A stretch of 64,000 nucleotides of DNA from Siphonodentalium dalli. Taxonomy: Eukaryota > Mollusca > Scaphopoda > Gadilida > Siphonodentaliidae. Below are positions 5,857 to 62,781 of the stretch, piece by piece. The stretch covers positions 167,534,664-167,598,663 of the forward strand of contig CP136066.1 in the NCBI GenBank assembly GCA_032622095.1. Direction: 5' to 3'. A program made the position numbers and the translations under genes. How positions within the stretch are numbered: the stretch's first letter is position 1; each line of letters starts with the position of its first letter. The notes beneath the pieces were generated by a model that was not told the DNA's origin, did no database searches, and worked only from the letters and a program-made list of their open reading frames with translations.

Positions 5857-6063
5857 GGTCCAATCCAGTGCCGTCAGTGTTTGCGGACATACAGAACACT
5901 GGGCAGCTATAAACATCATTTCTACTTTCACCATTCAGATAAGATTTACCCGTGTATCATTTGTGGCAGGGAATTTCGTAAGAACAGTTCAATGCAAAGA
6001 CACCAAAGTGTTCACAGTAAACTTCTAAATGTCACTGACTATCAGCCTGGATTATTCGGATGA
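5857..6063 (+). CDS. ZE1: two-finger C2H2 terminal exon (68 aa)
   Basis: The exon follows the acceptor ..TTAATTTTTCAG ending at 5856 and opens in phase 0 as GPIQC. Finger 1 (residues 5-26) is C-x2-C-x12-H-x3-H with helix TLGSYKH and the family signature YFHHS. Finger 2 (about 33-53) is C-x2-C-x12-H-x3-H with helix KNSSMQR. A 15-residue non-finger tail ends at TGA 6061-6063. A candidate AATAAA polyadenylation signal lies at 6081-6086, about 20 nt after the stop, supporting a terminal exon. There is no usable in-exon start Met, so the protein must be completed by upstream exons outside the window. It is the first recognisable member of the array. A nuclear DNA-binding role is inferred from the fold. 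Confidence 0.9.
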   Translation, partial: GPIQCRQCLRTYRTLGSYKHHFYFHHSDKIYPCIICGREFRKNSSMQRHQSVHSKLLNVTDYQPGLFG

Positions 6064-6228
6064 CACGGAGCGCATGCTAGAATAAAGATAAAATCTCCAA
6101 TCTTCAATTAGAATCTGATGAATACCAGCCCTGGGAATTGAGAAAAATATGCCTTGGCAATATGTACTAGTAGGTGGATGAATTCGATCTAGGCAAAACA
6201 ATATTTTCTCAATGCAATTTCAATCTCA

Positions 6229-6377
6229 AAGGAAATATGGCTTGTTGCCATTCATCGGAAAGCTCTCGCTGAGAGCTTTCCGATGAATGGCAACAAGCCA
6301 TATTTCCGATTAAATCCTGAAAAGTTACCCATAATTCTGCTGTGGTTAAGGAGTCCATTATTTAGGGCATTACTGTA
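6229..6377. mobile_element. TA-flanked CAGTAATGCCC palindromic MITE, left-truncated
   Basis: Family consensus: TA-CAGTAATGCCCTAA ... palindrome centred on GAAAGCTCTC ... TTAGGGCATTACTG-TA, about 205-220 bp when complete. Tc1/mariner-type TA duplication is inferred. This copy keeps the centre and right half only. Confidence 0.75.
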
Positions 6378-6728
6378 CCTACATGTGTATAAAGTGGTGT
6401 CACCGCAGTAAAGTTACCGCTTCAAAACCACAATGCATGCAGGATTTAAAGAAATTAAAAGCAAGATTTCAAACAGAAATGTCAAAATTGCAATTGTAAA
6501 ATGTTATTAACAAATGACTTGCAATTTTGGTGAATGCGACATGATTGTGCTTTATTGTAATCTTTCAGCTGAGTGCCCCACAATGTAGCACGCAGTGAAC
6601 TTTACGTGACTTTGTAGTTGCCGACATTGTTTTGGCTGTCAAACTATGAACTCCGTGCATCGCCTTGTGTCATGCCGCTTTGATTGACATTACAAATGCA
6701 GCCATGAACATGAACAAGATTCTCCTTA

Positions 6729-6935
6729 TACAGTAATGCCCTAATTAATCGACTTCTTAACCACAGCAGAATTATGGGTAATTTTTCAGGATTTAGTCGG
6801 AAATATGGCTTGTTGCCATTCATCTGAAAGCTCTCGGCGAGAGTTTTCTGATGAATGGCAACAAGCCATATTTCCGACTAAATTACCCATAATTATGCTG
6901 TGGTTAAGAAGTCGATTAATTAGGGCATTACTGTA
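6729..6935. mobile_element. CAGTAATGCCC MITE
   Basis: Complete copy with TA at 6729-6730 and 6934-6935. The centre reads CTCTCGGCGAGAG. Confidence 0.8.
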
Positions 6936-7088
6936 TCTGTGTAACTTAACGAGATCCTTGTGGACATATTCTTTTTTTTTAAACTTTTGGTGTGACGACC
7001 CGCTAATAGACCGCAGTATCACAACTGCACGGAACCGTAACTTCACCACAGTGACCACTGTGGATATCGTATAATACAGGTAATACAG

Positions 7089-9655: not shown

Positions 9656-9659
9656 TGTT

Positions 9660-11862: not shown

Positions 11863-12081
11863 GCCCCATTTCAATGTTCGTTGTGTCACAGACGTTACAA
11901 GACAAAAGGAAGTTACGACCATCATTTCTACTTCCATCACAACGACAGGGTCTTTCCCTGTCCGACCTGCGGAAAAACATTTCCTAGGGCTACTGATATG
12001 CGGAAACACCATGTTGTTCACGAGCGACAGAAGTATAGAGTTCTAGCTTTACAGCTGTCACAAGATAATACTGACCAATAG
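11863..12081 (+). CDS. ZE2: two-finger C2H2 terminal exon (72 aa)
   Basis: The acceptor is TTTTGTTTTCTCCGCAG, ending at 11862; the exon opens APFQC in phase 0. Finger 1 has helix TKGSYDH and motif YFHHND; finger 2 (VFPCPTCGKTF) has helix RATDMRK, with Asp at +3 and Lys rather than Arg at +6. A 20-residue polar tail (..LQLSQDNTDQ) ends at TAG 12079-12081. The likely branchpoint GGGCTAATG, about 25 nt upstream, coincides with the right end of a TTAA-type MITE. The 3' flank resembles that of ZE11 and is interrupted by a TA-flanked MITE at 12143-12362. Confidence 0.9.
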   Translation, partial: APFQCSLCHRRYKTKGSYDHHFYFHHNDRVFPCPTCGKTFPRATDMRKHHVVHERQKYRVLALQLSQDNTDQ

Positions 12082-13652: not shown

Positions 13653-14070
13653 AGTAGTTATTTTTACAAATATTAATCCAATTTGACAACACAAACACCG
13701 TCATTCTGATATATCAATTAAAGGTGATGACTCTCGTTGGCGAAATCATTTGTGTTAGTTTATCACTGATAGTTGCATCCCAAATCCAGATGTAAATATT
13801 TACAATTGAGTGTAGTTCAGACGATGTTTTCTATGGAGTGGTATGCTCGATTTCTATGATTTTTTCAATGATGTTAGTAGAATGCTACATTCCACAGGTT
13901 GGCATAATGCCTGAGTGCTAACTTACCAGTTTCACGCACCCGTACAAGTCCATAATATGTCTTTAAATAAACTGTAATGATGATGCATTCTGGTATATGA
14001 GAGAGAGGTCATTTCTCCCTGGGACAAAACTTGGAAGGAGTGACACGCTGTGGGGAGATTTCTCCCTTCA

Positions 14071-14484
14071 AGCCTGAAAATAGTGTCTGACATTTGCCGA
14101 ATGAGGTCCCCAGAGTGTGAATTTAGTGATGCTATCCCGCACGGCAGGCTAGCATCGCCAAATTCACCCTATGGGAACCTCATTCTGCTTAGGCTGCAAC
14201 TGCTATGTTGAAATTGGTGATGTTCACCCATTAGTCACCTCGATTATGCATTGTATATTCTGCAAATTAGAGTATATAGAAACTGAAGAGAAGGGAAAAA
14301 TTGCATCTAAATACAATGTTAATTTGAGACTATAGAAGCTTCCCAGAAGATGAGGCTTATTAAAGCAGTATGAGGTCCCCAGAGGATGAGTTTGCAAACT
14401 CCAGCCTGATGTGTGTGGTAGCTTCACTAAATTCACCCTCTGGGGACTTCATTCTGCAAATGTCAGACACACTATTTCAAGGCT
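14071..14484. mobile_element. GAGGTCCCC palindromic MITE
   Basis: Inverted ends AAGCCTGAAAATAGTGTCTG and GTCAGACACACTATTTC..; each end carries its own ~100-bp sub-palindrome (GAATGAGGTCCCC..AATTTAGTGATGCTA). Further copies: 8330-8632 (partial), 23102-23407 (diverged), 23408-23871, 28813-29190, 33358-33750, 39475-39597. Confidence 0.7.
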
Positions 14485-14564
14485 TTTCTCCCATGTTGCC
14501 CTCTAGGCTGGTCCTCTCCCAAGTCACCCTCTAGACTGGTCCCTGGTGTTTTTTATTTGTTTGC

Positions 14565-14660
14565 ATGGTACTGACTGGTGTGTTTGTTTTCTCTGCCCGG
14601 AACTGACTGGTGTGTTTGTTTTCTCTGCTCGGAACTGACTGGTGTGTTTGTTTTCTTCGC
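14565..14660 (+). repeat. Branchpoint/polypyrimidine minisatellite before ZE3
   Basis: Three units of about 32 bp: (GGTA/GGAA)CTGACTGGTGTGTTTG then TTTTCTCTGC or TTTTCTTCGCAG. Only the last carries the AG of the ZE3 acceptor. It is the same unit as before ZE4 but at low copy number, so it is probably the ancestral state of that array. Confidence 0.85.
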
Positions 14661-14662
14661 AG

Positions 14663-14884
14663 TATCCATTCCAGTGCGAGCTGTGTATGCGAGTGTACAG
14701 AACGAAAGCCAGCTACCAGGATCACTTCCAGTACCACCATTCTGGGAGAGTCTATCCCTGCCTCATTTGTGGCAAGGAATTCAGAAAAGTCAACAATCTT
14801 AATCGACACATGACAATTCACACTCGCCAGAGTCTGAAAAAAGGGATTAACATACATGTAGAACATCCTTCAAATAGGTTCTAA
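14663..14884 (+). CDS. ZE3: two-finger C2H2 terminal exon (73 aa)
   Basis: The acceptor GTTTTCTTCGCAG ends at 14662; the exon opens YPFQCELC in phase 0. Finger 1 has helix TKASYQD and motif QYHHSG; finger 2 (YPCLICGKEFRK) has helix KVNNLNR with Asn at +3. The tail of about 21 residues is basic then polar, ending in TAA 14882-14884. It is the closest relative of ZE4: same FRKVN core and the same repeated sequence before the acceptor, where three copies of a GGAACTGACTGG-plus-pyrimidine unit precede the real splice site. A TA-flanked MITE begins 46 bp after the stop, so the 3' UTR either includes it or is very short. Confidence 0.9.
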   Translation, partial: YPFQCELCMRVYRTKASYQDHFQYHHSGRVYPCLICGKEFRKVNNLNRHMTIHTRQSLKKGINIHVEHPSNRF

Positions 14885-14929
14885 ATCAGACATACATGTA
14901 TCATGGGTTAAGGTACAACATCTCTCAAA

Positions 14930-15134
14930 TACAGTATTGCCCTAAATAATCGACTCCTTAACCACAGCAGAATTATGGTTAATGTTTCAGGATTTCGTCG
15001 AAAATATGGCTTGTTGCCATTCATCGGAAAGCTCTCGCTGAGATCTTTCCAATGAATGGCAACAAGCCATATTTCCAACTAAATTATCAAAAACCCCTAA
15101 TTTTGCTATGGTTGATTATTTAGGTCGTTAATGT
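14930..15134. mobile_element. CAGTAATGCCC MITE after ZE3
   Basis: Complete but diverged copy starting 46 bp after the ZE3 stop. The right terminus has decayed (TCGTTAATGTA). Confidence 0.75.
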
Positions 15135-15539
15135 ATGTTCTAAGTCAGACAAATCAGGGGTTAAAGTAGAACATCCCTCAAATACCAGTACGTTCTAAAT
15201 CAGACATATCAGGGTTAAATGTAGAACATCCCTCAAATATGTTCTAAATCAGACAAACTAAATTGAATATACCACCAGAATGTAGACTACTAATCCTAGT
15301 TGGAACTAAATGTCAAACTCTGTTCTGTGTACTAAGAGCAGGAACCAGGCTGAATGTTTGAAATTTGGAGAAGTCTTTGTTATCCCTGTTTGGTTATTAA
15401 GGAGAAGTGGACTGTAATCGGGGAGAAGTAACAATGGCTGAAGTTCAATTCATCACACTTCTTTTATCCAATAAGTTTCATGCAACACAAGAGCCCATAT
15501 ATAGTGAGTAAGAACACCATTATAATCAGTAAATATACT

Positions 15540-16007
15540 TTAACCCTTTTAGTGCCAGGGGCCGATCTCATCGGCCCTAATTTACATGGTCTGTAGAGTG
15601 CCCTTTTTTTTTTTTTTTTTATTCTTTTTTTTTTAGATTTGTTTCTTTGTTGGGTTGAATGTTTTTTTTGGATATGCTTAAGCATGCTATTACGAATTTA
15701 AAAACAAACTGGATAAAACCTTAGGGGCATGTTATAACTCAACACTATCACCAAGTATTCATAGTAATAATTTTGATACCCATGAAAAACATAAGATTCC
15801 CTGACAATAAACCTACAAAATAAGTCTGTTAAAGAATATAAGAACAAATTATTAAAATTGTAAAAAATAATAACAAATGATGAAAAATTGTTAGGCCAAT
15901 GCATTCTCTTATATATGCGAGGCGACCTATGGTCGACTCGCATATATAAGAGAATGCATTGGTATATGGGTTGATACAAAACTCGGACCTGGCACTCAAA
16001 GGGTTAA
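15540..16007. mobile_element. TTAA MITE with internal palindrome
   Basis: TTAACCCTTTTAGTGCCAGG ... CCTGGCACTCAAAGGGTTAA, flanked by TTAA at 15540-15543 and 16004-16007. It contains a T-run (about 15605-15633) and a ~68-bp palindrome (about 15895-15962, GCCAATGCATTCTCTTATAT type). It interrupts a dispersed repeat whose halves are about 15348-15539 and 16008-16131. Confidence 0.75.
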
Positions 16008-16149
16008 ATACGATGTTGGGACATGCATATATGCATACTGATATATGAGAGAGGTCAATTCTCCCTGGGACAAACAAGGAGAAGTGGCACATTTTAGGGA
16101 GAAGATGTCGCCCTCTTTAGGCTGGTCCCTGTTTTGAAGCTTGAATAAT

Positions 16150-16510
16150 TTACCTGGAACTGACTGGATGCATTTGTATTATTTTCCGCCCGGAACTGAC
16201 TGGAAACATTTGTGTTTTCTGCCCAGAACTGACTGGTTTGTTTTTGTGTTTTCTGCCCAGAACTGACTGGTTGTGTTTGTATTTTCTGCCCGGAACTGAC
16301 TGGTTGTGTTTGTATTTTCTGCCCGGAACTGACTGGTTGTGTTTTATGCCCGGAACTGACTGGTTGTATTTTCTGCCCGGAACTGACTGGGGTTGTGTTT
16401 GTATTTTCTGCCCGAAACTGACAGGTTGTGTTTGTATTTTCTGCCCGGAACTGACTGGTTGTGTTTGTATTTTCTGCCTGGAACTGACTGGTTTGTGTTT
16501 GTTTTTTCTG
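16150..16510 (+). repeat. Branchpoint/polypyrimidine minisatellite before ZE4
   Basis: About 11 tandem units of about 20-40 bp, each with GGAACTGACTGG followed by a T/G-rich tract and TTTTCTGCC. The last unit ends in the real acceptor TTTTTTCTGCAG. CTGAC fits the metazoan branchpoint consensus. Most units end CTGCCCGG and so lack a 3' AG, but two early ones read CTGCCCAG. Confidence 0.85.
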
Positions 16511-16513
16511 CAG

Positions 16514-16699
16514 CCTCCATTCCAGTGTTTGCTGTGTATGAGAATTTACAGTACGAAAGGCAGCTACAAGGATCATTTCAACTATCATCATTCTGGGAAA
16601 GTCTATCCCTGCCCTATCTGTGGCAAGGAGTTCAGAAAAGTCAACGATCGTAACAGGCACACCGCAATTCACAATCGAATGAGAGGCATGCAACATTAG
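16514..16699 (+). CDS. ZE4: two-finger C2H2 terminal exon (61 aa)
   Basis: The acceptor GTTTTTTCTGCAG ends at 16513; the exon opens PPFQCLLC in phase 0. Finger 1 helix is TKGSYKD with NYHHSG; finger 2 (YPCPICGKEFRK) helix is KVNDRNR, with Asp at +3 and an unusual Arg at +4, where Leu is normal. The tail is only 9 residues. Two candidate AATAAA signals follow at 16735-16740 and 16758-16763. About 11 tandem copies of a 20-40 bp branchpoint/pyrimidine unit precede it. Long open frames on the opposite strand and in the other + frames are by-products of that minisatellite. ZE5 starts only 244 nt later, the tightest spacing in the array. Confidence 0.9.
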   Translation, partial: PPFQCLLCMRIYSTKGSYKDHFNYHHSGKVYPCPICGKEFRKVNDRNRHTAIHNRMRGMQH

Positions 16700-16943: not shown

Positions 16944-17123
16944 AGACCATTCAGGTGTCCATTGTGTCAGCGTACATACAGAACCAAGGGCAGTTACTCT
17001 GATCATTTCACTTTCCATCATTCCGACAAAGTCTATCCATGTCCTATCTGTGGTCGACAATTTCGAAAAAGTGGTGATTTAAAACGACATAAAGAGGTTC
17101 ACAACAGATGGAATTTGTATTAA
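16944..17123 (+). CDS. ZE5: two-finger C2H2 terminal exon (59 aa)
   Basis: The acceptor TTTCTTTCCTCTACAG ends at 16943, preceded by a good branchpoint (ATCCTAACTGG) 25-30 nt upstream. I translated this exon by hand: it opens RPFRCPLCQRTY in phase 0, finger 1 helix TKGSYSD with TFHHSD, finger 2 (YPCPICGRQFRK) helix KSGDLKR, then a 6-residue tail ending TAA 17121-17123. The tail is among the shortest of the array, so almost the whole exon is finger. The short gap from ZE4 leaves room for only a very short 3' UTR for ZE4. Confidence 0.88.
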   Translation, partial: RPFRCPLCQRTYRTKGSYSDHFTFHHSDKVYPCPICGRQFRKSGDLKRHKEVHNRWNLY

Positions 17124-18063: not shown

Positions 18064-18234
18064 ACGGGGTACCAGTGTGAATTATGCAGTAGAATATACA
18101 GAACACGGGACAGTTATCGCGGACACTTCCAATATCATCACTCAGGCAAAATTTATCCGTGTACCATATGTGGCAAAGAGTTTAGAAAGAGGCAGAATAT
18201 GTTACAACACACAGCAGCTAAACATCGGAATTAG
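18064..18234 (+). CDS. ZE6: two-finger C2H2 terminal exon (56 aa)
   Basis: The acceptor CTCTTGTTTTCTTCACAG ends at 18063, with branchpoint-like AACTGACTT just upstream. It opens TGYQCELC in phase 0. Finger 1 helix is TRDSYRG with QYHHSG; finger 2 (YPCTICGKEFRK) has helix KRQNMLQ and H-x4-H spacing (HTAAKH). It is the only two-finger member with Gln instead of Arg/Lys at helix +6. The tail is two residues (RN), the shortest in the array. About 90 bp directly before the branchpoint (17935-18020) is a fragment of a dispersed repeat also found near 9340, 13660 and 24185. Confidence 0.88.
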   Translation, partial: TGYQCELCSRIYRTRDSYRGHFQYHHSGKIYPCTICGKEFRKRQNMLQHTAAKHRN

Positions 18235-19148: not shown

Positions 19149-19436
19149 AAAGTGTACCAGTGTGGTGAATGCCAGCGGACGTATGGGACCAAGGGCAGTT
19201 ACCAGCATCATTTCTATTATCACCACAATTACAAAATACATGCATGTCATATATGTGGAAGGGAGTTCCGAAAATCTAATCATTTGAAACGGCATTTAAT
19301 TTCACACGATCGCAAGACCTTGCCTGGCGATATAAGTGTGCCAGCCACAGTATCTCAAAGTCAGCAATGGCTGTTTGATCATAATCCATCGATTTCTCAA
19401 GATCCTCGTCTAAACTGTGAAAAATATCAAAATTGA
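19149..19436 (+). CDS. ZE7: two-finger C2H2 terminal exon with long polar tail (95 aa)
   Basis: The acceptor TTTCTTTTCTTCCCGCAG ends at 19148, with AACTGACCT branchpoint-like sequence upstream. It opens KVYQCGEC in phase 0. Finger 1 helix is TKGSYQH with YYHHNY; finger 2 (IHACHICGREFRK) helix is KSNHLKR with His at +3. A tail of about 40 residues (Ser/Gln/Asp-rich, starting DRKTLPGD) has no recognisable domain and ends at TGA 19434-19436. The tail may act as an isoform-specific protein-interaction segment, but nothing in the sequence proves this. A TTAA-type MITE with an internal tandem array starts about 30 bp downstream. Confidence 0.88.
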   Translation, partial: KVYQCGECQRTYGTKGSYQHHFYYHHNYKIHACHICGREFRKSNHLKRHLISHDRKTLPGDISVPATVSQSQQWLFDHNPSISQDPRLNCEKYQN

Positions 19437-22444: not shown

Positions 22445-22831
22445 TTAACCCTTTACCCAACAAAACGGCCAAAACCGGCCAAATAAAGCTTCAACAGCCT
22501 AAAATATCTTCGGTCTGTCTCAATAGAACCATACAAATATGGATATCATTGGAACCGGCTCCTTGACCACATTTTGATAGTTACAGTTATGCCCTGTGCC
22601 AATGCATTCTCTTATATATGTGAGTCGACCATAGGTCGCCTCGCATATATAAGAGAATGCATTGGCCTAAAAAACACTTTTTACCATTTTTTCTTACATT
22701 CTTTAACAATTTTATAATTTTTAATGTGTTAAGCCAATGCATTCTCTTATATATGCGAGGCGACCTATGGTCGACTCGCATATATAAGAGAATGCATTGG
22801 CACAGGGCCGTTCTGTTGGGTAAAGGGTTAA
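22445..22831. mobile_element. CCCTTTACCCAACA-family MITE, copy 2
   Basis: TTAA at both ends, terminal inverted repeat CCCTTTACCCAACA, and two ~70-bp palindromes. It is in the opposite orientation to copy 1. TTAA targets with CCC ends suggest piggyBac-type mobilisation (inference). Confidence 0.8.
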
Positions 22832-23407
22832 TATATCAAGGTTACACATGGCTTAATTATTTATTGTTTGGCCAGTTGAATTACATGTAGCTGATCATGC
22901 TTTTGATCTGTTGTTTCTTGTTTGTATAATACACTGTTAAATAAACAGTTATTGGTAATCCGTGTTCCTATCTCTCAGGAATCACACACCCCGGTGGTAA
23001 AATAGTTAATAATAATAAACATTTATTTGTAATCAGTGTTCTTTCCCATATTCATGTACCGCTCAGGGATAACACACCCTGGTGGTATAATAGATCACAT
23101 AATTTCTGTGACATTTGCGGAATAAGGTTCCCAGACAGTGAATTTAGTGACCCTTCCCTGTTTACAGTGGACTGCAATCTCTGCATGGCCTCATCTGTTA
23201 TGCGAGACCTAGACGCAGGTTTAAGTTCCCAGATGGTGATGTGCACCCATTGGGCACCTCGATTATGCATGTTGTTTTCTTCCAGTTTGGGGATAAAGAG
23301 AAACTAAACTAAAAAAGAAAAGAAACTTGATAAAGAAGTTTCTATACAAACTAAACAACTTGTTAATTTTAATAAAGATACTATCCAGAGCAGAATGAGG
23401 TCCCATC

Positions 23408-25793: not shown

Positions 25794-26090
25794 ACTCTGT
25801 TCCACTGTTCGTTATGTGAGCGAGGTTACAAGACTAAAGGAAGTTTCCGAGACCATTTCTCTTTCCATCATTCCAACAAAGTATATCCCTGTTCAACCTG
25901 TGGGAAGACGTTCAAGAAAACAGGTCACTTGAAGAGGCACCAAAATGTTCATTCTACTACAGGACGTGTCCGTGGCCAACAAAGTGTTCGTGCTGCAGTG
26001 ACTATTCCTGACCAACAAAATGATTATGGACCAGTTGACTCCAACCAAACTCAACAATTTGAATTCACCCGGTTCCAGTCATATATGTAG
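25794..26090 (+). CDS. ZE8: two-finger C2H2 terminal exon with long polar tail (98 aa)
   Basis: Found by manual translation. The acceptor is ACATTTTTATTTCACAG, ending at 25793. The exon opens TLFHCSLCERGY in phase 0. Finger 1 helix is TKGSFRD with SFHHSN; finger 2 (YPCSTCGKTFKK) helix is KTGHLKR with His at +3. A tail of about 45 residues rich in Gln, Asp, Thr and Val (..SVRAAVTIPDQQN..) ends in TAG 26088-26090. The opening TLF(H/R)C and Phe in place of Tyr in helix 1 link it to ZE9. The nearest ZE neighbours are over 4.5 kb away on both sides. The acceptor is weaker in pyrimidine content than most others. Confidence 0.87.
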   Translation, partial: TLFHCSLCERGYKTKGSFRDHFSFHHSNKVYPCSTCGKTFKKTGHLKRHQNVHSTTGRVRGQQSVRAAVTIPDQQNDYGPVDSNQTQQFEFTRFQSYM

Positions 26091-30761: not shown

Positions 30762-31022
30762 ACCCTATTCAGATGTGATGATTGCAACCGTGTGTACAGA
30801 TCAAAAGGCAGCTTCGTTAACCATTTTAGCTTCCATCATTCTGGCAGAATTTACCCATGTCAAGTTTGTGGGCGAGAGTTTCGCAAAGCTAGCAGTCTCA
30901 AGCGACACACCGCCATACACGATAGGACATTCCGCTGTGACTTGTGTGAATTCGTCTGTGATGCTAAGGAAAAACAGATGTACCATATCATGAAAAACCA
31001 TCCATGGGTTGGCGCAAAATAA
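30762..31022 (+). CDS. ZE9: three-finger C2H2 terminal exon (86 aa)
   Basis: The acceptor TTTTGTTTCCTCTGCAG ends at 30761. It opens TLFRCDDCNRVY in phase 0. Finger 1 helix is SKGSFVN with SFHHSG; finger 2 (YPCQVCGREFRK) helix is KASSLKR; a third finger (FRCDLCEFVC.., C-x2-C-x12-H-x4-H) follows after a short HDRT linker. The tail is WVGAK-like and TAA is at 31020-31022. The stop overlaps a candidate AATAAA at 31018-31023. The two-finger core is like ZE1-ZE8, but the third finger is unlike that of ZE11-ZE14, so it may have been gained independently. A ~900-bp inverted-repeat element ends 97 bp before the acceptor. Confidence 0.9.
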   Translation, partial: TLFRCDDCNRVYRSKGSFVNHFSFHHSGRIYPCQVCGREFRKASSLKRHTAIHDRTFRCDLCEFVCDAKEKQMYHIMKNHPWVGAK

Positions 31023-33809: not shown

Positions 33810-34499
33810 GTGGTCGAAATAAACCCGGATTACAGTTATGACCAAAGCTCTTTTACCATATTAGGAAATGATTTGAACATTGTCACTCCAGTGGGCAGCA
33901 TCGAAGTGGAAGATTTTATTTGTCAAAAAGAAAAAGGTCTTGATAAGAGTGATAAATCACAACAAGATCAGAAGTCAGATAATAAAAATCAGAAAGGTAG
34001 CACAAAACAGAAACGTCGTGCCTCGAGACAGAAATGCTTTGTTTGCGAAACTTGTGGTAAAATGCTGACGTCGAAAAGTGGTTTGGTTGTTCATCGCCGT
34101 TTACATGATGATGGTGATGGTTACACTTGTGAGTTCTGTGGAAAGAAGTTCGCTCAAAAGATTTCACTGGAGGGCCATGTGAATAAACACAAGGAAAGCA
34201 AACCGCACTTATGTTCGCAATGTGGCAAATGTTTTTATCACAAAACAAGCCTACTCCGACATCAGAAGACCTGCAAAACAGATGTTAAACCTAAACCTTC
34301 AGTTCGAAGATCGATTCCAGGATTTTATGGTTGTACTTTTTGTCATAAAAAGTTTTCAAGGAAAGATAGCTTGCAGGATCACATTGATACGGAACATGAG
34401 GGGAAGACTCGTACATGTCGGGACTGTGGTAAAGAGTACTTTAGAAGGAGCAGTCTTTCCAAGCATAGGAAAGCAACAGGACACATGGGTCCATCATAG
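33810..34499 (+). CDS. ZE10: five-finger divergent terminal exon (229 aa)
   Basis: The acceptor TTTGTCCATTTTCAG ends at 33809, phase 0, so it is splice-compatible with the others, but the content differs. Residues 1-75 are finger-free: an acidic/hydrophobic start (VVEINPDYSYD) then a Lys/Gln/Ser-rich stretch (about 40-75). Fingers: F1 C79-C82-H95-H99; F2 C107-C110-H123-H127; F3 C135-C138-H151-C155 (a C2HC variant); F4 C175-C178-H191-H196; F5 C203-C206-H219-H225 (x5 spacing). Linkers F2-F3 (ESKPHLC) are near canonical. It lacks the YHHS signature of its neighbours. It may be an older founder exon or a captured unrelated exon. A palindromic MITE ends roughly 60 bp upstream. Confidence 0.85.
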   Translation: MVEINPDYSYDQSSFTILGNDLNIVTPVGSIEVEDFICQKEKGLDKSDKSQQDQKSDNKNQKGSTKQKRRASRQKCFVCETCGKMLTSKSGLVVHRRLHDDGDGYTCEFCGKKFAQKISLEGHVNKHKESKPHLCSQCGKCFYHKTSLLRHQKTCKTDVKPKPSVRRSIPGFYGCTFCHKKFSRKDSLQDHIDTEHEGKTRTCRDCGKEYFRRSSLSKHRKATGHMGPS

Positions 34500-36663: not shown

Positions 36664-36936
36664 GGAATGTTAAAATGCACTGATTGTGGCAGATCATACT
36701 CAACAAGAGCTAGCTTCCTCATGCACTTCAAGTATCACCATAGCAACGAAGTATACTCATGTGACGTCTGCGGCCGAACATTCAAGGGGAAGAACACCCT
36801 AACGAGACATGAATACACTCATTCGCAGCAGAAACCATACCAGTGTCTTGTCTGCGAGTGTTCGTTTATCCAGAGATTTCAGCTTGATGTTCATATGAAG
36901 CAAAAACATCCGGAGTACCCATGGATGAACAATTGA
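36664..36936 (+). CDS. ZE11: three-finger C2H2 terminal exon (90 aa)
   Basis: The acceptor TTTTTGTTTCCTCTGCAG ends at 36663. It opens GMLKCTDCGRSY in phase 0. Finger 1 C5-C8-H21-H25, helix TRASFLM, still with KYHHSN. Finger 2 C33-C36-H49-H53, helix GKNTLTR. A near-canonical linker (SQQKPYQ) leads to finger 3 C61-C64-H77-H82, helix IQRFQLDV. The tail PEYPWMNN ends at TGA. The HPE motif after finger 3 recurs in ZE13 and ZE14, and HPG in ZE12. A candidate AATAAA is at 36991-36996. A TA-flanked MITE ends 76 bp before the exon. After this exon the array is interrupted for 21 kb by repeats. Confidence 0.9.
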   Translation, partial: GMLKCTDCGRSYSTRASFLMHFKYHHSNEVYSCDVCGRTFKGKNTLTRHEYTHSQQKPYQCLVCECSFIQRFQLDVHMKQKHPEYPWMNN

Positions 36937-50700: not shown

Positions 50701-50945
50701 AATTTAATCCATTAGCACGGGCCACAGGTCGTACTGTTCGTCTGATCACCATGAAATTTGTCATGGATGATAATATTGACATGTAGATGGGAACGAGTAA
50801 TTTTGGGGTCATTCGGCCAATAAACATGGCCGCCAGCAGCCATCTTCGATTTTACTCTTTGTATGACTAAATTCTTTAGCACGGGCTGCAGGTCGTACCT
50901 TTAGTCTGATCATCATAAAATTTGTCATGGATATTAACAATGACA
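46503..50945. repeat. 4443-bp tandem duplication, copy 2
   Basis: Second copy of 42060-46502. Identity ends near 50985, where this copy reads CGGCTAAAAAACATGG while copy 1 continues CGGCCAATAAACATGG. Both junctions lie in the ~165-bp cores. Confidence 0.9.
49445..49834. mobile_element. CCCTTTACCCAACA-family MITE, copy 6 (duplicate of copy 5)
   Basis: Same as 45002-45391, carried by the tandem duplication, and therefore not an independent insertion. Confidence 0.75.
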
Positions 50946-53066
50946 TGTAGATGGGAACGAGTAATTTTGGGGTCATTCGGCTAAAAAACATGGTCGCCAG
51001 CAGCCATCTTGGATTTTACTCTTTGTATGACTAAATCCTTTAGCACGGGCTACAGGTCCTACTTTTAGTCTGATCATCATAAAATTTGTCATGGTTGAAA
51101 TTGGAATGTAGATGGGAACGAGTCATTTTGGGGTCATTCGGACAAAAAACATGGCCACCAGCGGCCATATTGGGTTTAAAAATTTAATCCATTAGCACGG
51201 GCCACAGGTCGTACTGTTCTTCTGATCATCATGAAATTTGTCATGGATGATAATATTGACATGTAGATGGGAACGAGTAATTTTGGGGTCATTCGGCCCA
51301 AAAACATGGCCGCCAGCAGCCATCTTGGATTTTACTCTTTGTATGACTAAATTCTTTAGCACGGGCTGCAGGTCGTACCTTTAGTCTGATCATCATAAAA
51401 TGTGTCATGGATGTTAACAATGACATGTAGATGGGAACGAGTAATTTTGGGGTCATTCGGCCAAAAAACCTGGACGCCAGCAGCCATCTTGGATTTTACT
51501 CTTTGTATGACTAAATCTTTTAGCACGGGCTACAGGTTGTACCTTTAGTCTGATCATCATGAAATTTGTCATGAATGTTAATAATGACATGTAGATGGGA
51601 ACGAGTCATTTTGAGGTCATTCGGCCGAAAAACATGGCCGCCAGCAGCCATCTTGGATTTTACTCTTTGTATGACTAAATCCTTTAGCACGGGCTACAGG
51701 TCGTACCTTTAGTCTGATCATCATAAAATTTGTCATGGTTGTTGAAATTGGAATGTAGATGGGAACGAGTCATTTTGGGGTCATTCGGACAAAAAACATA
51801 TTGGATTTAAAAATTTAATCCATTAGCACGGGCCACAGGTCGTACTGTTCTTCTGATCATCATGAAATTTGTCGTGGATGATAATATTGACATGTAGATG
51901 GGAATGAGTAATTTTGGGGTCATTCGGCAAAAAAACATGGCCGCCAGCAGCCATCTTGGATTTTACTCTTTGTATGACTAAATTCTTTAGCACGGGCTGC
52001 AGGTCGTACCTTTAGTCTGATCATCATAAAATGTGTCATGGATGTTAGCAATGACATGTAGATGGGAACGAGTAATTTTGGGGTCATTCGGCCAAAAAAC
52101 CTGGTCACCAGCAGCCATCTTGGATTTTACTCTTTGTATGACTAAATCCTTTAGCACGGGCTACAGGTTGTACCTTTAGTCTGATCATCATGAAATTTGT
52201 CATGAATGTTAATAATGAAATGTAGATGGGAACGAGTCATTTTGAGGTCATTCGGCCGAAAAACATGGCCGCCAGCAGCCATCTTGGATTTTACTCTTTG
52301 TATGACTAAATCCTTTAGCATGGGCTACAGGTCGTACCTTTAGTCTGATCATCATAAAATTTGTCATGGTTGTTGAAATTGGAATGTAGATGGGAACAAG
52401 TCATTTTGGGGTCATTCGGACAAAAAACATGGCCGCCAGTGGCCATCTTGGATTTAAAAATTTAATCCATTAGCACGGGCCACAGGTCGTACTGTTCGTC
52501 TGATGATCATGAAATTTGTTATGGATGATAATATTGACATGTAGATGGGAACGAGTAATTTTGGGGTCATTCGGCCCAAAAAATGGCCGCCAGCAGCCAT
52601 CTTGGATTTTACTCTTTGTATGACTAAATTCTTTAGCGCGGGCTACATGTCATACCTTTAGTCTGATCATCATAAAATTTGTCATGAATGTTAATAATGA
52701 CATGTAGATGGGAACGAGTCATTTTGGGATCATTCGGCCAAAAAACATGGCCGCCAGCAGCCATCTTGGATTTTACTCTTTGTATGACTAAATTCTTTAG
52801 CATGGGCTACAGGTCGTACCTTTAGTCTGATCGTCATAAAATTTGTCATGGATGTTAACGATGACATGTAGATGGGAACGACTCATTTTGGGGTCATTCG
52901 GCCGAAATCATGGCCGCCAGCAGCCATCTTGGATTTTACTTTTCTTTTCATGTCTATAAACATGTATTAGATATTCAACTTTCCACATTCCTAATGGCTC
53001 CATTGACTGTAATACATTAAATTATTCCCTTTCCAAGTTGAGCTACAGTGTCATTGACACTTTCAT
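50018..53066 (+). mobile_element. Pearl-like element d
   Basis: Same ends as element b. The core is longer (about 17 units of ~165 bp). Some units are missing segments, for example 51795 where the GGCCGCCAGCGG part is deleted. The first ~930 bp duplicate 45575-46502. Confidence 0.75.
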
Positions 53067-54215
53067 TATTTAGTATTGAGAGATAAACATGGTTTTGTAA
53101 CTTTTCATTTGAGTACTACGGGTACTAGTACTTCCACTCAAATTATGCTAATGCTGTCAAAGGCCAATTGGCCAATGGCCATTTTTTTGGGTGAAAATGG
53201 CCAAACAATATTTAATTTGGTAATTTTGTTTTTTTTTTACCTCAAAATCGAAAATCTAATTCAAAAACCCAAATTGATTTTGTAACAAGAGCGACATGAG
53301 AATCAAATTTATAGTATGATCATCTGCCAATTGATTAGGTGATGCAGCTTAATGGGTAACAAATGCATTCATGGCAGTGCATAATCAAACAGTGGGCCAC
53401 CAAATGCAATAAAACAGCAATGAGGGTTAACACTAATGAATTCTTTGTATGTTATAGGGCTGAATGGTAGATGGTGGGTAGTGGTATATTGTCAAGTAAC
53501 AATGGTGGGGTTAAAAAAAAGTCTAGACATGTTATTTGAAGGTATCAAAATAATTATATAGAATATTAGATGTTAAATAAAGCAAAATTATTCATTTATA
53601 TATTAATAATTGTGAGACCAGAACTTGAGGATTTAATCTGGACACAGTTTTTTTCATTTGGCCAAAAAAAAAATCAGAATTGGCCAAAAAATTGGCCGAA
53701 AGATTTTTCGGCCCAGCGTGAACACTGTTCAAGCATGCAACAACTCAACGCTTCAATGTTATCTCACTTCATCAGTCTTATGACACTGATAAGTAAAACT
53801 TTTCGGTGATTGGCCTTGGAAGGGAGGACCTTACTTTTAGACTGTCTTTGGACAACATGCTAGCAATATCTTGTTGGGGCAAATGTCAGAAAATTTCATG
53901 ATGACATTATTGACTTAGTCTGTTTCAAGGACCAGCCTAGATGGCGACTTGTGATACATCTCCCTAAATTTCACCACTTCTCCCTTTTATTGCTCCCTTT
54001 TATGGTCCTTGTCCTTGGCAGAAGTTAATTTTCTCTTTAATATACTCTATATTCTCAGTATGCATATTTCCGAACAGCATTTGGACGTCTATTTACAGAT
54101 TATAATGGTGTGCATTCTGATTATAATGGTAATACAAATGCACTCTTGTATTTCATAATACTTATTGGATCACAAAAAGATGAAGGTGAAGAGTAAATTG
54201 AACTTCAGCCTTTAT

Positions 54216-57200
54216 TAGCTCAACTTTACTTTGTAAAGTTTGAGCTATTGCCATGGCTTTGTTGTCCGTCGTCCGTGTGTACGTGTGTACGTGTGTGCGT
54301 GTGCGCGTGTGTGCGTGTGTACGTAAGGCGTCAACAATAGAGGCTACAGGTCGTACCTTTGATCGGATCATTATGAAATTTGTCATAGCTGTTGACATCA
54401 ACATTTGTACCAGAATGATTCATTTTGGGGTCATTCGGAAAAAAAACATGGCCACCAGCGGCCATCTTAGATTTCAAAATTCAATTCATTAGCACGGGCT
54501 ACAGGCCGTACTGTTCGTCTTATCGTCATGAAATTTGTCATGGATGTTAATATTGACATGTAGATGGGAACGAGTAATTTTGGGGTCATTCGGCCAAAAA
54601 ACATGGCCGCCAGCAGCCATCTTCGATTTTACTCTTTGCATGACTAAATCCTTTAGCACGGGCTACAGGTCGTACCTTTAGTCAGATCGTCATAAAATTT
54701 GTCATGGATGTTAACAATGACATGTAGATGGGAACGAGTCATTTTTGGGTTATTCGGGCAAAAAACATGGCCGCCAGCAGCCATCTTGGATTTTACTCTT
54801 TGTATGACTAAATCCTTTAGCACGGGCTACAGGTCGTACCTTTAGTCTGATAATCATGAAATTTATCATGGCTGTTGAAATTGGAATGTAGATGGGAACG
54901 AGTCATTTTGGGGTCATTCGGACAAAAAAAAATGGCCGCCAGTGGCCATCTTTGTTTTCAAAATTCAATCCATTAGCACGGGCCACAGGTCGCACTGTTC
55001 GTCTGATCATCATGAAATTTGTCATGGATGTTAACAATGACATGTAGATTGGAAAGAGTCATTTTGGAGTCAATCGGCCAAAAAACATGGCCGCCAGCAG
55101 CCGTCTTGGATTTTACTCTTTGCATGACTAAATCCTTTAGCACGGGCTACAGGTCCTACTTTTAGTCTGATCATCATAAAATTTGTCAAGAATGTTAATA
55201 ATCACATGTAGATGGGAACGAGTCATTTTGGGGTCATTCGGCCAAAAAACATGGCCGTCAGCAGACATCTTGGATTTTACTCTTTGTATGACTAAATCCT
55301 TTAGCACGGGCTACAGGTCGTACCTTTAGTCTGATCATTATAAAATTTGTCATGGCTGTTGATATTGGAATGTAGATGGGAACGAGTCATTTTGGGGTCA
55401 TTCGGACAAAAAACATGGCCGCCAGCGGCCATCTTGGATTTCAAAATTTAATCCATTAGCACGGGCTACAGGTCGTACTGATTGTCTGATCATCATGAAA
55501 TTTGTCATGGATGATAATATTTACATGTAGATGGGAACGAGTAATTTTGGGGTCATTCGGCCAAAAAACATGGCCACCAGCAGCCATCTTAGATTTTACT
55601 CTTTGTATGACTAAATTCTTTATCACGGGCTGCAGGTCGTACCTTTAGTCTGATCATCATAAAATTTGTCATGGATGTTAACAATGACATCTAGATGGGA
55701 ACGAGTAATTTTGGGGTCAATCGGCCAAAAAACATGGTCGCCAGCAGCCATCTTGGATTTTACTCTTTGTATGACTAAATCCTTTAGCACGGGCTACAGG
55801 TTGTATCTTTAGTCTGATCATCATAAAATTTTTCATGAATGTTAATAATGACATGTAGATGGGAACGAGTCATTTTGGGGTCATTCGGCCAAAAAAGATG
55901 GCCGCCAGCAGCCATCTTGGATTTTACTCTTTGTATGACTAAATCCTTTAGCACGGGCTACAGGTCGTACCTTTAGTCTGATCATCATAAAAATTTTCAT
56001 GGCTGTTGAAATTGGAATGTAAATGGGAACAAGTCATTTTGGGGTCATTCGGACAAAAAACATGGCCGCCAGCGGCCATCTTGGATTTCAAAATTTAATC
56101 CATTAGCACGGGCTACAGGTCGTACTGATTGTCTGATCATCATGAAATTTGTCATGGATGATAATATTTACATGTAGATGGGAACGAGTAATTTTGGGGT
56201 CATTCGGCCAAAAAACATGGCCACCAGCAGCCATCTTAGATTTTACTCTTTGTATGACTAAATTCTTTATCACGGGCTGCAGGTCGTACCTTTAGTCTGA
56301 TCATCATAAATTTGTCATGGATGTTAACAATGACATGTAGATGGGAACGAGTAATTTTGGGGTCAATCGGCCAAAAAACATGGTCGCCAGCAGCCATCTT
56401 GGATTTTACTCTTTGTATGACTAAATCTTTTAGCACGGGCTACAGGTTGTATCTTTAGTCTGATCATCATAAAATTTTTCATGAATGTTAATAATGACAT
56501 GTAGATGGGAACGAGTCATTTTGGGGTCATTCGGCCAAAAAAGATGGCCGCCAGCAGCCATCTTGGATTTTACTCTTTGTATGACTAAATCCTTTAGCAC
56601 GGGCTACAGGTCGTACCTTTAGTCTGATCATCATAAAAATTTTCATGGCTGTTGAAATTGGAATGTAAATGGGAACAAGTCATTTTGGGGTCATTCGGAC
56701 AAAAAACATGGCCGCCAGCGGCCATCTTGGATTTCAAAATTTAATCCATTAGCACGGGCTACAGGTCGTACTGATTGTCTGATCATCATGAAATTTGTCA
56801 TGGATGATAATATTTACATGTAGATGGGAACGAGTAATTTTGGGGTCATTCGGCCAAAAAACATGGCCACCAGCAGCCATCTTAGATTTTACTCTTTGTA
56901 TGACTAAATTCTTTAGCACGGGCTACAGGTCGTACCTTTAGTCTGATCATCATAAAATTTGTCATGGATGTTAACAATGACATGTAGATTGGAACTAGTC
57001 ATTTTGGGGTCATTCGGCCAAAAAACATGGCCACCAGCAGCCATCTTAGATTTTACTCTTGTATGACTAAATTCTTTAGCACGGGCTACAGGTCGTACCT
57101 TTAGTCTGATCATCATAAAATTTGTCATGGATGTTAACAATGACATGTAGATGGGAACGACTCATTTTGGGGTCATTCGGCCGAAAACATGGCCGCCAGC

Positions 57201-57345
57201 AGCCATCTTGGATTTAACTTTTCTCTTCATGTCTATAAACTAGTATTAGACATTCAACTTTCCACATTCCTAATCGCTCCATTGACTGTAATATATTAAA
57301 TTATTCCCTTTCCAAGTTGAGCTACAGTGTCATTGACACTTTCAT
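54216..57345 (+). mobile_element. Pearl-like element e
   Basis: Same ends; begins TAGCTCAACTTTACTTTG after TTTAT and ends ACTTTCAT before ATAACAG. It sits inside another dispersed repeat: the left flank (GAACTTCAGCCTTTA) and right flank (AAGTGACTTCTCCC) are contiguous in a copy near 20925. The core contains a ~647-bp higher-order repeat. Confidence 0.75.
55481..56773. repeat. ~647-bp higher-order repeat inside element e
   Basis: The landmark GTACTGATTGTCTGATC occurs near 55481, 56128 and 56774. Each ~647-bp block is about four ~162-bp units, and the two full blocks are nearly identical, including shared variants such as AAAATTTTTCATG. Confidence 0.7.
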
Positions 57346-58189: not shown

Positions 58190-58453
58190 ATAAGTTTCCA
58201 ATATCCCGACTACAAGAGACTTAACATGTCGGATCCCGGATATCTCAGCAATAAGGAGAAAGGTCTTATGGGTTTCATGTGTGAAGAATGCGGAAAAGAG
58301 TTCAGGAGAAAGGAGGATTGTAAAAGACACTCGTACACTCATAAGCTACAGAAACCATTCCAGTGTTCTTGTTGTTATAAATCGTTCACAATGAAATACC
58401 GTCTTCTCAAACATATGAGACGCTATCACCCTGGAATTGTAGAACTTGTATAA
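58190..58453 (+). CDS. ZE12: terminal exon with a decayed first finger and two intact fingers (87 aa)
   Basis: The acceptor TTTTGTTTTCTCTTCAG ends at 58189; it opens ISFQYPDYKRLN in phase 0. It aligns without gaps to the first finger of ZE13, but both cysteines are Tyr (Y5, Y8) and the first His is Asn (N21), so finger 1 cannot bind zinc in the normal way. Finger 2 starts at C31 (MCEECGKEF, helix RKEDCKR); finger 3 (FQCSCCYKSF) follows the linker KLQKPFQ and ends HMRRYHPGIVELV. The frame is fully open, so this is loss of one finger, not a dead exon. Two damaged copies of its 3' end lie just downstream. A TA-flanked MITE begins 20 bp after the stop. Confidence 0.85.
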   Translation: MSFQYPDYKRLNMSDPGYLSNKEKGLMGFMCEECGKEFRRKEDCKRHSYTHKLQKPFQCSCCYKSFTMKYRLLKHMRRYHPGIVELV

Positions 58454-58720: not shown

Positions 58721-58727
58721 ACGTAGT

Positions 58728-58953: not shown

Positions 58954-58968
58954 CCCCCCCCCCCCCCC

Positions 58969-59024
<56 letters not shown>
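58954..59024. repeat. Poly-C tract
   Basis: About 70 nt of almost pure C. It could form i-motif or G-quadruplex on the other strand. A short G run at 26371-26390 and another at 33246-33256 are similar but smaller. Confidence 0.9.
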
Positions 59025-59025
<1 letters not shown>

Positions 59026-59680: not shown

Positions 59681-59947
59681 GTAATGATCAAATGTCCAAA
59701 CTGCGAGAGATGTTACATGTCGGAGGCGGGATTCCTCAGGCACAAGGATTACTGTCATCTGCCCAATTTATTCCCATGCGAAGAATGTGGGCGGCATTTT
59801 GTTAGAAAGAAAGACTATATAAGGCACATGTATACTCACAGAGAGCAGAAACCCTTCCAGTGTCCCGGCTGTTCAAGCTCGTTCATACAGAAATTTCAAC
59901 TCAATACACACTTGAGACGCTATCACCCAGAAATTCTGACTCTCTGA
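59681..59947 (+). CDS. ZE13: three-finger C2H2 terminal exon (88 aa)
   Basis: The acceptor TTTTGTTTTCTCTTCAG is nearly identical to that of ZE12 and ends at 59680. It opens VMIKCPNCERCY in phase 0. Finger 1 C5-C8-H21-x4-H26, helix SEAGFLR, without the YHHS signature. Finger 2 (FPCEECGRHF) helix RKKDYIR. Linker HREQKPFQ. Finger 3 (CPGCSSSF) ends HLRRYHPEILTL, then TGA. It is the intact sister of ZE12: same fingers 2-3 layout, same RRYHP ending and same splice site, so the two arose by duplication. A TA-flanked MITE ends 99 bp before the exon. Confidence 0.9.
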   Translation, partial: VMIKCPNCERCYMSEAGFLRHKDYCHLPNLFPCEECGRHFVRKKDYIRHMYTHREQKPFQCPGCSSSFIQKFQLNTHLRRYHPEILTL

Positions 59948-60275: not shown

Positions 60276-61607
60276 TATGAACCCCCGCTGATGGCTAGTT
60301 GTCTGGTTCTAATTAATTTAATCCTAGTCACCATGATCCAATGGTCCGATGGTTTCGACCATTAACATATATCATGATATGAAGATGTCATGCGTTCAAA
60401 TCCTGCTTGCTGCCGTTTAGCAGTACCAGAGCTGTTAAGTTTCACATATTGTATGTGAGACTCCCGGATAATTCGGCAAATACGGATAACTTCCAATTTC
60501 TCCCGGATTCAGCAAAACCCGGCAGTCAAAATCCCCAAAAATGATGTTATTGCCACTGTACAGTTTGTAATGCATACGTTTACTTATGTCTGTGACCAAT
60601 CTTTATCAGAGTCAGAGTTGTCTATCTTATCAACATTCACATTCACATAATTTTACGGAGTTAATGCACAAAACATATAACTTGTATCTATAAAACAATT
60701 GAATTCACTGTTAATACGGTACATCAATTGTTTCCATGAAATGTGTCTTCACATGTCATGCAATATGAGATATAAATTTTAATACTGTGCCATATGTAGA
60801 CAAAAATTGCCACAAAATAGTCCCATGCAAATCTGACAAATATTTGGGAAACTCATCATTGATGGACCGGTTTGAACACTATTCTGGTATTACAGTATGT
60901 GATCAGGCAATTTTTTAGTTCTCAAAATCCTTGTTGCACCTCCATTTCTCTGATTTTACAAGAATCTTATTAAAATCGGTGTGTGACAGAGGTGATTATT
61001 GGTAAGATAGACCACTCTTGTTGAGATTGTTCTGAGACATCTGAATCATCTTGGGTATCTAGTCCATTATTGGTGGCTTTTTTTGAATTTATATTACCAT
61101 AATCTGTAGATTAATTAGCTTTTTAAATATTCAGCTCTTTGATGACTGAATTATTTTATAATTAAAAATATGTTGCTAACCATGTCTGTTTATTTTAATA
61201 CCATTGGCTATATTATATAGTTACTTCTTTATGATGTTGCTGCATGTAACTTACTTATTTTGTAGTCTGAAATCTATAGGAGGGTGTCACCACATTCCTC
61301 CATCCAACCCCCACCCCTCCCCACTTTTGGTATGCAGGATACAGGCCATTTTCATGTGTTACGCAGGTACTCGAGATTCATATGCCCAATTCATGTATTT
61401 GGAAGATATGTGGTCGAAAAATTACACGTGCACACATTTATAGTACAAAATTTGGATTATTATCCAGCCCAAATGATATATTTTGATGTTATTCAGTCCA
61501 ACACATCTTGATATGTTGAAGTTATGGAGATTAATTTAGTAAATGTGTGAATCTATGATATTAGCATATAATAACTACGGTAAGTATGTATTCCATATTC
61601 TCTTAAA
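60276..61607. other. Unassigned stretch
   Basis: Between ZE13 and ZE14. No zinc-finger pattern, MITE or tandem array seen before the 31-bp minisatellite. Confidence 0.5.
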
Positions 61608-61845
61608 TGGTATACAGGATTCACCCCTCTCTGTTAACTGGTATACAGGATTCACCCCTCTCTGTTAACTGGTATACAGGATTCACCTCTCTCTGTTAAC
61701 TGCATGGTATACAGGATTCACCCCTCTCTGTTTACTGGTATACAGGATTCACCCCTCTCTGTTAACTGGTATACAGGATTCACCCCTCTCTGTTAACTGG
61801 TATACAGGATTCCCCCCTCTCTGTTAACTGGTATTCAGGATTTAG
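61608..61845. repeat. 31-bp minisatellite, seven to eight units
   Basis: The unit TGGTATACAGGATTCACCCC..TCTGTTAAC is repeated from 61608. One unit has a 4-bp insertion (CTGCATGG). It is about 630 bp before ZE14. Confidence 0.85.
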
Positions 61846-61911
61846 GGGGGGTAATAGTAGGGAAGGCATGACCCCCTCCAATATAAAAAGATGGGATAAG
61901 AGACCCACATT

Positions 61912-62362
61912 TAAATGTCCTCAAATGAGTTAAATTTTTGAATCACCCGATCACATTATTTTCAACATATTCCATATTATATACCATTGGAAATAGGAAG
62001 TTCCAAAACATTGTATAACGATTTATCTGGTCGAATAAACTGTTTTTTTGTCAAGGTACTGGTGTGTGTTCTGTGCTTAATTTCGGTATGCTCTGTACTG
62101 GCAGATTATTATTCTCAATGGAAGAGGGGTAACTCTATCTTTTAGTTGTGAATTATGATGCATTCTGGGGGTAAATAATGGCAGAAATCTTGGGGTGAAT
62201 CTGAGAATCTGTTATTACTTGGTAAACACAATTAGGCCCACAGCTGTTCTTTATTCTGGTGGAATATATATATATTTTTGTTCCTTTTCCAAATGGTATA
62301 TAATATGAAATATGTTGTGTATAATATGATCTGGGCATTTGAAAATTAAGTCGGGCTTTAAA
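61912..62362. mobile_element. AGGCCCACTTAAT-type repeat before ZE14
   Basis: Reverse-orientation relative of 17323-17771 (shared GAATTATGATGCATTCTGGG and CACAGCTGTTC). It ends about 115 bp before ZE14. Confidence 0.6.
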
Positions 62363-62475
62363 AAAAATTTAACTTAAAATTTTTGAATGTGTGCTGTATC
62401 ATGATATGAATTTTATGAAAATAAAAGTGTTGTGAAATCTGATAATCTTGATTTAATTTTTTATTTCCTCTACAG

Positions 62476-62781
62476 GGTTTGATAACATGCTCGGAGTGCG
62501 GGCGATCTTATTCCACAAAGGGAAGTTTTCTTATGCACAGAAAGTATCACCATTACCCAGACTCTCACCCATGCGATATATGTGGCCGCGTGTTCAAGAA
62601 ACGGAGTGACGTAAGAAGACATCTCTACACGCATTCGGATCAGAAACCTTATCCCTGTTCATACTGCGCCAGGTCCTTCTGTCAGAGAAATCAACTCAAA
62701 TCTCATCTGCTCCATAAGCACCCAGAAGTCACTGATATCGAAAGCCTACTAAACCCAGTCGCATCAAAAGAAACTCCCTAA
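62476..62781 (+). CDS. ZE14: three-finger C2H2 terminal exon (101 aa)
   Basis: The acceptor TTTTTTATTTCCTCTACAG ends at 62475. It opens GLITCSECGRSY in phase 0. Finger 1 helix TKGSFLM with KYHHYP, closest to ZE11; finger 2 (HPCDICGRVF) helix KRSDVRR; linker SDQKPYP; finger 3 (CSYCARSF) helix QRNQLKS ending HLLHKHPE. A tail of about 18 residues (TDIESLLNPVASKETP) ends at TAA 62779-62781. It is the last recognisable member before the window ends; whether further ZE exons lie beyond 64000 cannot be seen. Confidence 0.9.
   Translation, partial: GLITCSECGRSYSTKGSFLMHRKYHHYPDSHPCDICGRVFKKRSDVRRHLYTHSDQKPYPCSYCARSFCQRNQLKSHLLHKHPEVTDIESLLNPVASKETP

Follow-up and report, generated by a model that had tools for sequence, protein, structure and literature searches.

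A predicted BTB gene with about twenty alternative terminal zinc-finger exons, comparable to Drosophila lola, in a likely molluscan genome

Introduction

The stretch of DNA analysed here (64,000 nucleotides, C6:167534664-167598663, of an assembly of 2.23 Gb in 9 contigs; referred to as the window, C6 being its contig) contains an array of C2H2 zinc-finger exons and raises the question whether these exons are the ends of many small genes or the interchangeable ends of a single one. Based on the sequence, it is highly probable that they belong to one gene in which a shared 5' part (the stem), encoding a BTB domain for protein pairing, is spliced to one of approximately 20 alternative terminal finger exons (the heads), in a manner like that of lola. 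For the latter gene, the available text of two reports describes a common BTB part to which unique C-terminal exons, mostly finger-bearing, are attached by splicing in cis and in trans, and 20 isoforms, 17 of which possess different C2H2 fingers (PMC1947980, PMC11426971).

Results and Discussion

Finger exons of the window

A C2H2 motif scan of the window in all six reading frames revealed 14 finger-bearing open frames, all of them located on the plus strand (14/14); in each, an in-frame CAG acceptor was present between the frame start and the first finger (14/14), and each was closed by a stop codon of its own. These features had been stated in a preliminary description of this DNA, whose array bounds (5857 and 62781) coincided with the acceptor of ZE1 and the stop of ZE14, respectively. 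The heads of the window are (window positions, strand, description):

5857..6063, +, ZE1, two-finger terminal exon with phase-0 acceptor
11863..12081, +, ZE2, two-finger terminal exon
14663..14884, +, ZE3, two-finger terminal exon
16514..16699, +, ZE4, two-finger terminal exon
16944..17123, +, ZE5, two-finger terminal exon
18064..18234, +, ZE6, two-finger terminal exon
19149..19436, +, ZE7, two-finger terminal exon
25794..26090, +, ZE8, two-finger terminal exon
30762..31022, +, ZE9, two fingers and an atypical third
33810..34499, +, ZE10, five fingers behind a 75-codon non-finger lead
36664..36936, +, ZE11, three-finger terminal exon, second codon an in-frame ATG
58190..58453, +, ZE12, degenerate first finger and two intact ones, the latter preceded by in-frame ATGs
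59681..59947, +, ZE13, three-finger terminal exon, second codon an in-frame ATG
62476..62781, +, ZE14, three-finger terminal exon

ZE1-9 encode finger pairs of one type (C..C.R.Y.TKGSY..HF.YHH ... CGREFRK...RH). The first finger cysteine was positioned exactly four codons past the splice site in 12/14 heads; besides ZE10 (75 codons past the acceptor), the only exception that had been recognized beforehand, ZE12 deviated as well (30 codons, first finger degenerate). Likewise, the suggested lack of a start codon held for 11/14 heads, which are devoid of ATG between the acceptor and the first intact finger, but not for ZE11, ZE12 and ZE13. The gap between the ZE4 stop and the ZE5 acceptor comprises 245 bp and provides scant space for the 5' part of a separate gene. 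In a Pfam scan of 5/14 window heads, C2H2 families ranked top and FLYWCH was absent from the matches listed (in one case the best 25 of 37), the heads of the window and of the paralogous locus 2 described below having themselves been found by a C2H2 pattern. A single minus-strand match of the pattern (window 22587-22835) was rejected as it was not a finger.

The BTB stem upstream of the array

The common upstream part that the preliminary description had postulated, possibly with a BTB domain and with a phase-0 donor, was located at C6:167495602-167504775, i.e. on the strand of the heads and 30-39 kb upstream of the window:

C6:167495602-167495727, +, exon A, ATG, 42 codons, first BTB half, donor AAG|GTAAGG in phase 0
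C6:167497753-167498366, +, exon B, second BTB half and basic linker, phase 0 in and phase 2 out
C6:167504331-167504775, +, exon C, linker, phase 2 in and phase 0 out, donor GAG|GTGGGT

The BTB match 37 kb upstream of the window corresponds to the second half of the domain, exon B, which opens with AHKVVL after a TAG acceptor and closes with a phase-2 GTAAGT donor; exon A, 2 kb upstream thereof, was located by using the N terminus of a paralogue with fused halves as query. Exon B alone matched Pfam PF00651 with 34.5 bits and the fused paralogue on contig C4 with 50.1 bits (cut-off 20.5). Exon C is positioned 6 kb beyond exon B and matched no Pfam family. The phases are compatible throughout (A 0, B 0/2, C 2/0, heads 0).

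Downstream heads and extent of the gene

Heads continue for 104 kb beyond the window, where ten finger frames were detected, seven with an in-phase acceptor, one off phase and two broken; the earlier estimate of at least 14 heads was thus exceeded by seven in-phase frames:

C6:167604007-167604270, +, ZE15
C6:167609507-167610028, +, frame opening directly after a repeat, probably dead
C6:167615490-167616401, +, ZE16 frame, best acceptor off phase
C6:167623641-167624453, +, ZE17, seven fingers behind a 75-codon lead
C6:167627163-167627711, +, frame whose front is apparently frameshifted, probably dead
C6:167635594-167636145, +, ZE18
C6: from 167649948, +, ZE19 frame, probably internal, which has a phase-0 donor (ACC|GTAAGT)
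C6:167656571-167656831, +, ZE20, acceptor AAG
C6:167673449-167673760, +, ZE21
C6:167702204-167702476, +, ZE22

ZE19 might belong to ZE20 or to another gene as an internal exon. At this locus (locus 1), 21/22 unbroken frames match the phase-0 donor. No plus-strand finger frame was present in the next 16 kb past the last head, and a genome search with this head as query gave none further along among the matches listed; the predicted gene accordingly spans C6:167495602-167702476 (~207 kb). Over 214 kb of sequence around the window, all frames with at least two finger matches were located on the plus strand (25/25, none on the minus strand). One of these (C6:167523653, with its own ATG) was left out of the head count, as were three matches at C6:167525173 (+, one finger), 167532058 (-, one match) and 167713085 (-, chance match). 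The former, a 336-codon frame with seven finger matches between stem and array (C6:167523653-167524663, +), may represent a separate gene, a mobile element or a further head.

Acceptor signals

In 13/14 window heads, the in-frame AG possessed the best or equal-best pyrimidine tract among the AGs listed; for ZE4, a better off-frame AG lies within a minisatellite. Tracts with at least 73% pyrimidines preceded 30/37 heads of the two loci in comparison with 10% of 2000 random CAG sites, a contrast that is biased since the head acceptors were chosen among AGs with at least 60% pyrimidines; the CTRAY motif was present at 13/37 heads versus 9% of the random sites.

Directly before ZE3 (window 14543-14656, ~3.6 copies) and ZE4 (window 16156-16511, ~10.9 copies), minisatellites of 32-33 bp were observed, whose unit GGAACTGACTGGTTGTGTTTGTATTTTCTGCCC resembles a copied branch point and pyrimidine tract of an acceptor; possibly, they act as a run of decoy or booster elements.

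Recurrence of the stem-head arrangement

The exon C protein matched four places in the genome (expectation value, E, up to 1), each beside a BTB stem. The paralogues of exon C are:

C6:59667112, +, locus 2, 79% identity
C6:198874393, -
C6:59496739

The donor GAG|GTGGGT occurs in phase 0 at 4/4 places, and the phase-2 acceptor of exon C and the phase-2 donor of exon B were seen at the 3/4 places that were read. All four copies have a core in common, T(M/L)TPSLxQxRAQQSIKRSIQSSxSAARxAxN.

Locus 2 (C6:59.66 Mb), paralogous to and 108 Mb apart from locus 1, comprises a stem of exons A, B and C in identical phases, followed in the 90 kb read by 16 finger exons, all on the plus strand (16/16) and all with an in-frame CAG (16/16); two one-motif chance matches (59647766, +, and 59671620, -) were dropped. 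A degenerate first finger is also present in some heads of this locus. Past the 90 kb, 13 more finger exons (C6:59738821-59879955, +) indicate that the array may reach to at least 59.88 Mb.

Across the genome, in which the BTB family gave 144 matches, exon A had 28 matches at E up to 1.3e-4; by comparison of positions by eye, 26/28 were followed by exon B in order and strand, one was the fused copy and one stood alone. The latter (C7:29845690-29845809, -) has no listed exon B partner. A genome-wide search in which the query was a finger exon of a fifth stem (C6:207.1 Mb) gave 133 matches, 59 in frames shorter than 165 codons and 74 in longer ones. With this limit and a distance limit of 250 kb, both chosen after the list had been seen, 43/59 short frames were located downstream and on the same strand of one of the 27 stems (8 stems involved), none (0/59) downstream of a stem on the opposite strand; 11/59 were also located upstream of a stem on the same strand within this distance. 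Only 4/74 long frames were placed downstream in this way, and the 250-kb downstream windows make up 0.15% of both strands. Besides loci 1 and 2, six more BTB stems are thus followed by same-strand finger exons, and an in-frame CAG is present in each of eight finger frames that were read, at four other stems and in the locus-2 extension; one further piece was left out as it started too near the head to show an acceptor. In total, approximately 77 heads were counted (21 in phase at locus 1, 16 at locus 2 and 40 from the genome search), numbers that are lower bounds because the finger-query searches scored 150 of 13701-16134 candidates each.

Of the 16 remaining short matches, 12 lie on contig C2 (15.63-15.69 Mb), where part of the locus-2 head array is apparently present as an inverted copy (C2:15625369-15692919, -), with 95.3% identity across the 2.3 kb that were compared; no stem was found there among the matches listed for exons A and B. 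This copy may be a real duplication, a translocation or an assembly duplicate. Two further head-like exons without a listed stem were seen at C7:48606858-48682105 (-).

Constraint and turnover

Substitutions were counted as simple Nei-Gojobori proportions of silent (pS) and replacement (pN) differences. Between loci 1 and 2, 39/42 residues of exon A (pS 0.81, pN 0.03), 124/198 of exon B and 111/145 of exon C are kept. For the stem overall, pS was 0.58-0.86 versus a pN of 0.03-0.45. Among ZE1-9, 33/36 pairs have saturated silent sites (corrected silent distance, dS, not computable) at a pN of 0.21-0.39; the silent and replacement (dN) distances are 2.68 and 0.37 for ZE2-ZE5, 2.23 and 0.32 for ZE2-ZE8, and 0.62 and 0.14 for ZE3-ZE4. 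Ten pairs of the locus-2 heads b1-b5 gave dN/dS values of 0.13-0.44. Since the pS of some heads exceeds 1, only the direction of the head values was used. With silent sites saturated or nearly so and amino acids conserved, both stem and heads appear old and maintained.

In a tree of 27/37 heads (ten with unlike layout or missing fingers being left out), the heads clustered by locus, with 5 changes versus means of 9.2 and 9.1 in two shufflings, in which 0 and 1 of 500 shuffles were as low; 2/24 branches were strongly supported and the three-finger types of loci 1 and 2 intermixed. Heads thus tend to be more alike within a locus than between loci, as expected if heads are duplicated and replaced locally while the stem is conserved.

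Proposed gene model and its alternatives

According to the model, the stem would be transcribed together with the head array over ~207 kb, the phase-0 donor of exon C would be joined to the acceptor of one head per message, and cleavage and polyadenylation after the chosen head would end the message. Each product would contain the constant BTB domain, basic linker and exon C together with a variable set of two to seven C2H2 fingers, presumably the DNA-binding part. Most likely, the joining would proceed in cis, combined with a choice of the terminal exon and of its poly(A) site; cis-splicing would be sufficient because every head read lies on the strand of the stem.

Several observations do not fit this model easily. 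ZE11, ZE12 and ZE13 carry an in-frame ATG upstream of the first intact finger; of the ten downstream frames, three are damaged or out of phase, and a donor is present in ZE19 itself. The heads are 36-197 kb distant from exon C, whose shared donor reads GTGGGT, not GTAAGT. Poly(A) signals (AATAAA/ATTAAA) within 200 bp after the heads were not enriched (5/20 and 5/16 versus backgrounds of 26% and 33%). The comparison of loci 1 and 2 for shared non-head exons was swamped by repeats, so that additional 5' exons between the heads are conceivable. In finger 1 of ZE1-9, moreover, the DNA-contact positions are no more variable than the others (mean entropy 0.81 versus 1.35 elsewhere); those of finger 2 are slightly more so (1.42 versus 1.14). 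Signs of a diversification of the contact residues are weak; in favor of the model, the canonical contact-residue signature differs in 37/37 heads.

The same stem-head architecture might be operated differently, with separate transcripts of the heads that are trans-spliced to the stem. This appears unlikely: all multi-finger heads at both loci read are located on the stem's strand, for which splicing in cis suffices, in contrast to insect mod(mdg4), some heads of which lie on the other strand according to the available text of the source (PMC4667647). Nevertheless, trans-splicing would accommodate the heads up to 197 kb away from exon C and the copy of part of the locus-2 array on C2, where no stem was detected; furthermore, one phase is shared by the exon C donors at the four places and by almost every head acceptor that was read, and any pairing would therefore keep the frame. 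By the same token, heads could be shared between stems, including those of the stemless C2 array. A genome-wide system of this kind, with approximately 27 stems, at least 8 of them with head arrays, exchanging heads by trans-splicing and independent of arthropod lola, is quite doubtful; if true, it would provide a combinatorial repertoire of transcription factors.

It is similarly improbable that only a few heads are used and that most of the array is the decaying remnant of a past tandem duplication. The two broken frames and the off-phase one downstream, as well as the degenerate first finger of ZE12 and of some locus-2 heads, are what such decay would leave behind, but the 14 window heads and the 16 locus-2 heads read are all open with in-frame acceptors, and replacement changes stay below silent ones throughout the ZE1-9 and b1-b5 pairs. 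A pseudogene array was not supported for the window heads, considering their replacement versus silent changes.

Finally, that each finger exon is the last one of its own small gene with unrecognized 5' exons, an ordinary arrangement for tandem zinc-finger clusters to which the ATGs just before the fingers of three window heads and the room left by the repeat-rich locus comparison would lend themselves, was rejected as very improbable in view of gaps down to 245 bp, the one shared phase and, in 8 cases, a suitably oriented BTB stem upstream of the finger exons.

The favored gene model, one stem with alternative terminal heads, would render these loci natural replicates for studying how one donor picks among ~20 acceptors within 160 kb and whether this requires trans-splicing.

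Relation to known systems

As in Drosophila lola, shared BTB 5' exons are accompanied by many C-terminal finger exons, here as predicted from the sequence. The predicted BTB N terminus (MEPKIYMNYIHPSSLLKQLSEL) differs from that of lola, however, in its lack of FxLRWN, the N-terminal mark of the arthropod Tramtrack (TTK) BTB group that includes lola (PMC11426971, available text), and the BTB domain is split by an intron before AHK; further differences are the absence of a Pfam family in exon C and the recurrence of the design at 8 stems. According to the available text of the same source, searches of Mollusca, Annelida and other phyla gave no TTK motif, and outside Arthropoda the TTK type was not detected (PMC11426971).

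Among solved structures, ZBTB17 fusions with NAC1 or BCL6 were nearest to the predicted BTB domain (4.5e-11 and 1.2e-9, summed over two BTB domains), followed by BACH1 (6.7e-9), while the TTK-type CG6765 was the weakest of the 29 PDB sequences matched (E 0.0045). The vertebrate ZBTB and BACH proteins, although nearest in BTB sequence, have in each gene a single finger or bZIP region that does not vary, and are not known to possess arrays of alternative heads. The BTB proteins Broad and fruitless of Drosophila have a Tramtrack-group BTB and only a small number of alternative exons for finger pairs.

Common exons for the BTB 5' part and many variable 3' exons are also a feature of mod(mdg4). Its heads are, in the available text of the source, mostly of the FLYWCH type, some being encoded on the opposite strand and trans-spliced (PMC4667647); those described here are C2H2 heads on one strand at the two loci read.

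Common descent with lola looks unlikely on these sequence grounds. The locus had previously been interpreted as an independent or ancient equivalent of lola and mod(mdg4): the functional analogy is retained, whereas an ancient origin in the sense of common descent with lola finds no support, the predicted BTB lacking FxLRWN. Among the best-ranked results of literature searches, no title or abstract was found that describes such a locus outside the arthropods; gene-annotation records and most papers behind subscriptions lay beyond this search, and mollusc isoform models may exist unremarked. In the literature found, the generation of many BTB zinc-finger factors from one gene by terminal-exon choice is described for arthropods with a Tramtrack-type BTB only. 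Another instance, based on a different BTB and present at several loci where the stem is old and conserved and the heads have been duplicated locally, would point to more than one origin of the design.

Host organism

The host is likely a mollusc, as the preliminary description had supposed. A codon pattern search for FMRFGKR detected an FMRFamide precursor exon at C7:147978100-147979700 (-) with 12 FMRFG copies, one FLRFG and ALSDDFFLRFG, which we take to be of the molluscan type. The arthropod cuticle (PF00379) and insect odorant-receptor (PF02949) families gave no genome match; as neither matched in the controls either, this agrees only weakly with a mollusc. Hemocyanin (PF14830) matched neither the genome nor the controls and is uninformative.

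Repeats in and around the array

Much of the gap between ZE11 and ZE12 is filled by a 164-bp satellite in blocks ~4.4 kb apart (window 40889-57219); translations suggest that the same satellite is present in the intron between exons B and C (~C6:167499000-167503700). Between ZE12 and ZE13, a run of 71 C (97% matches) occupies window 58954-59024.

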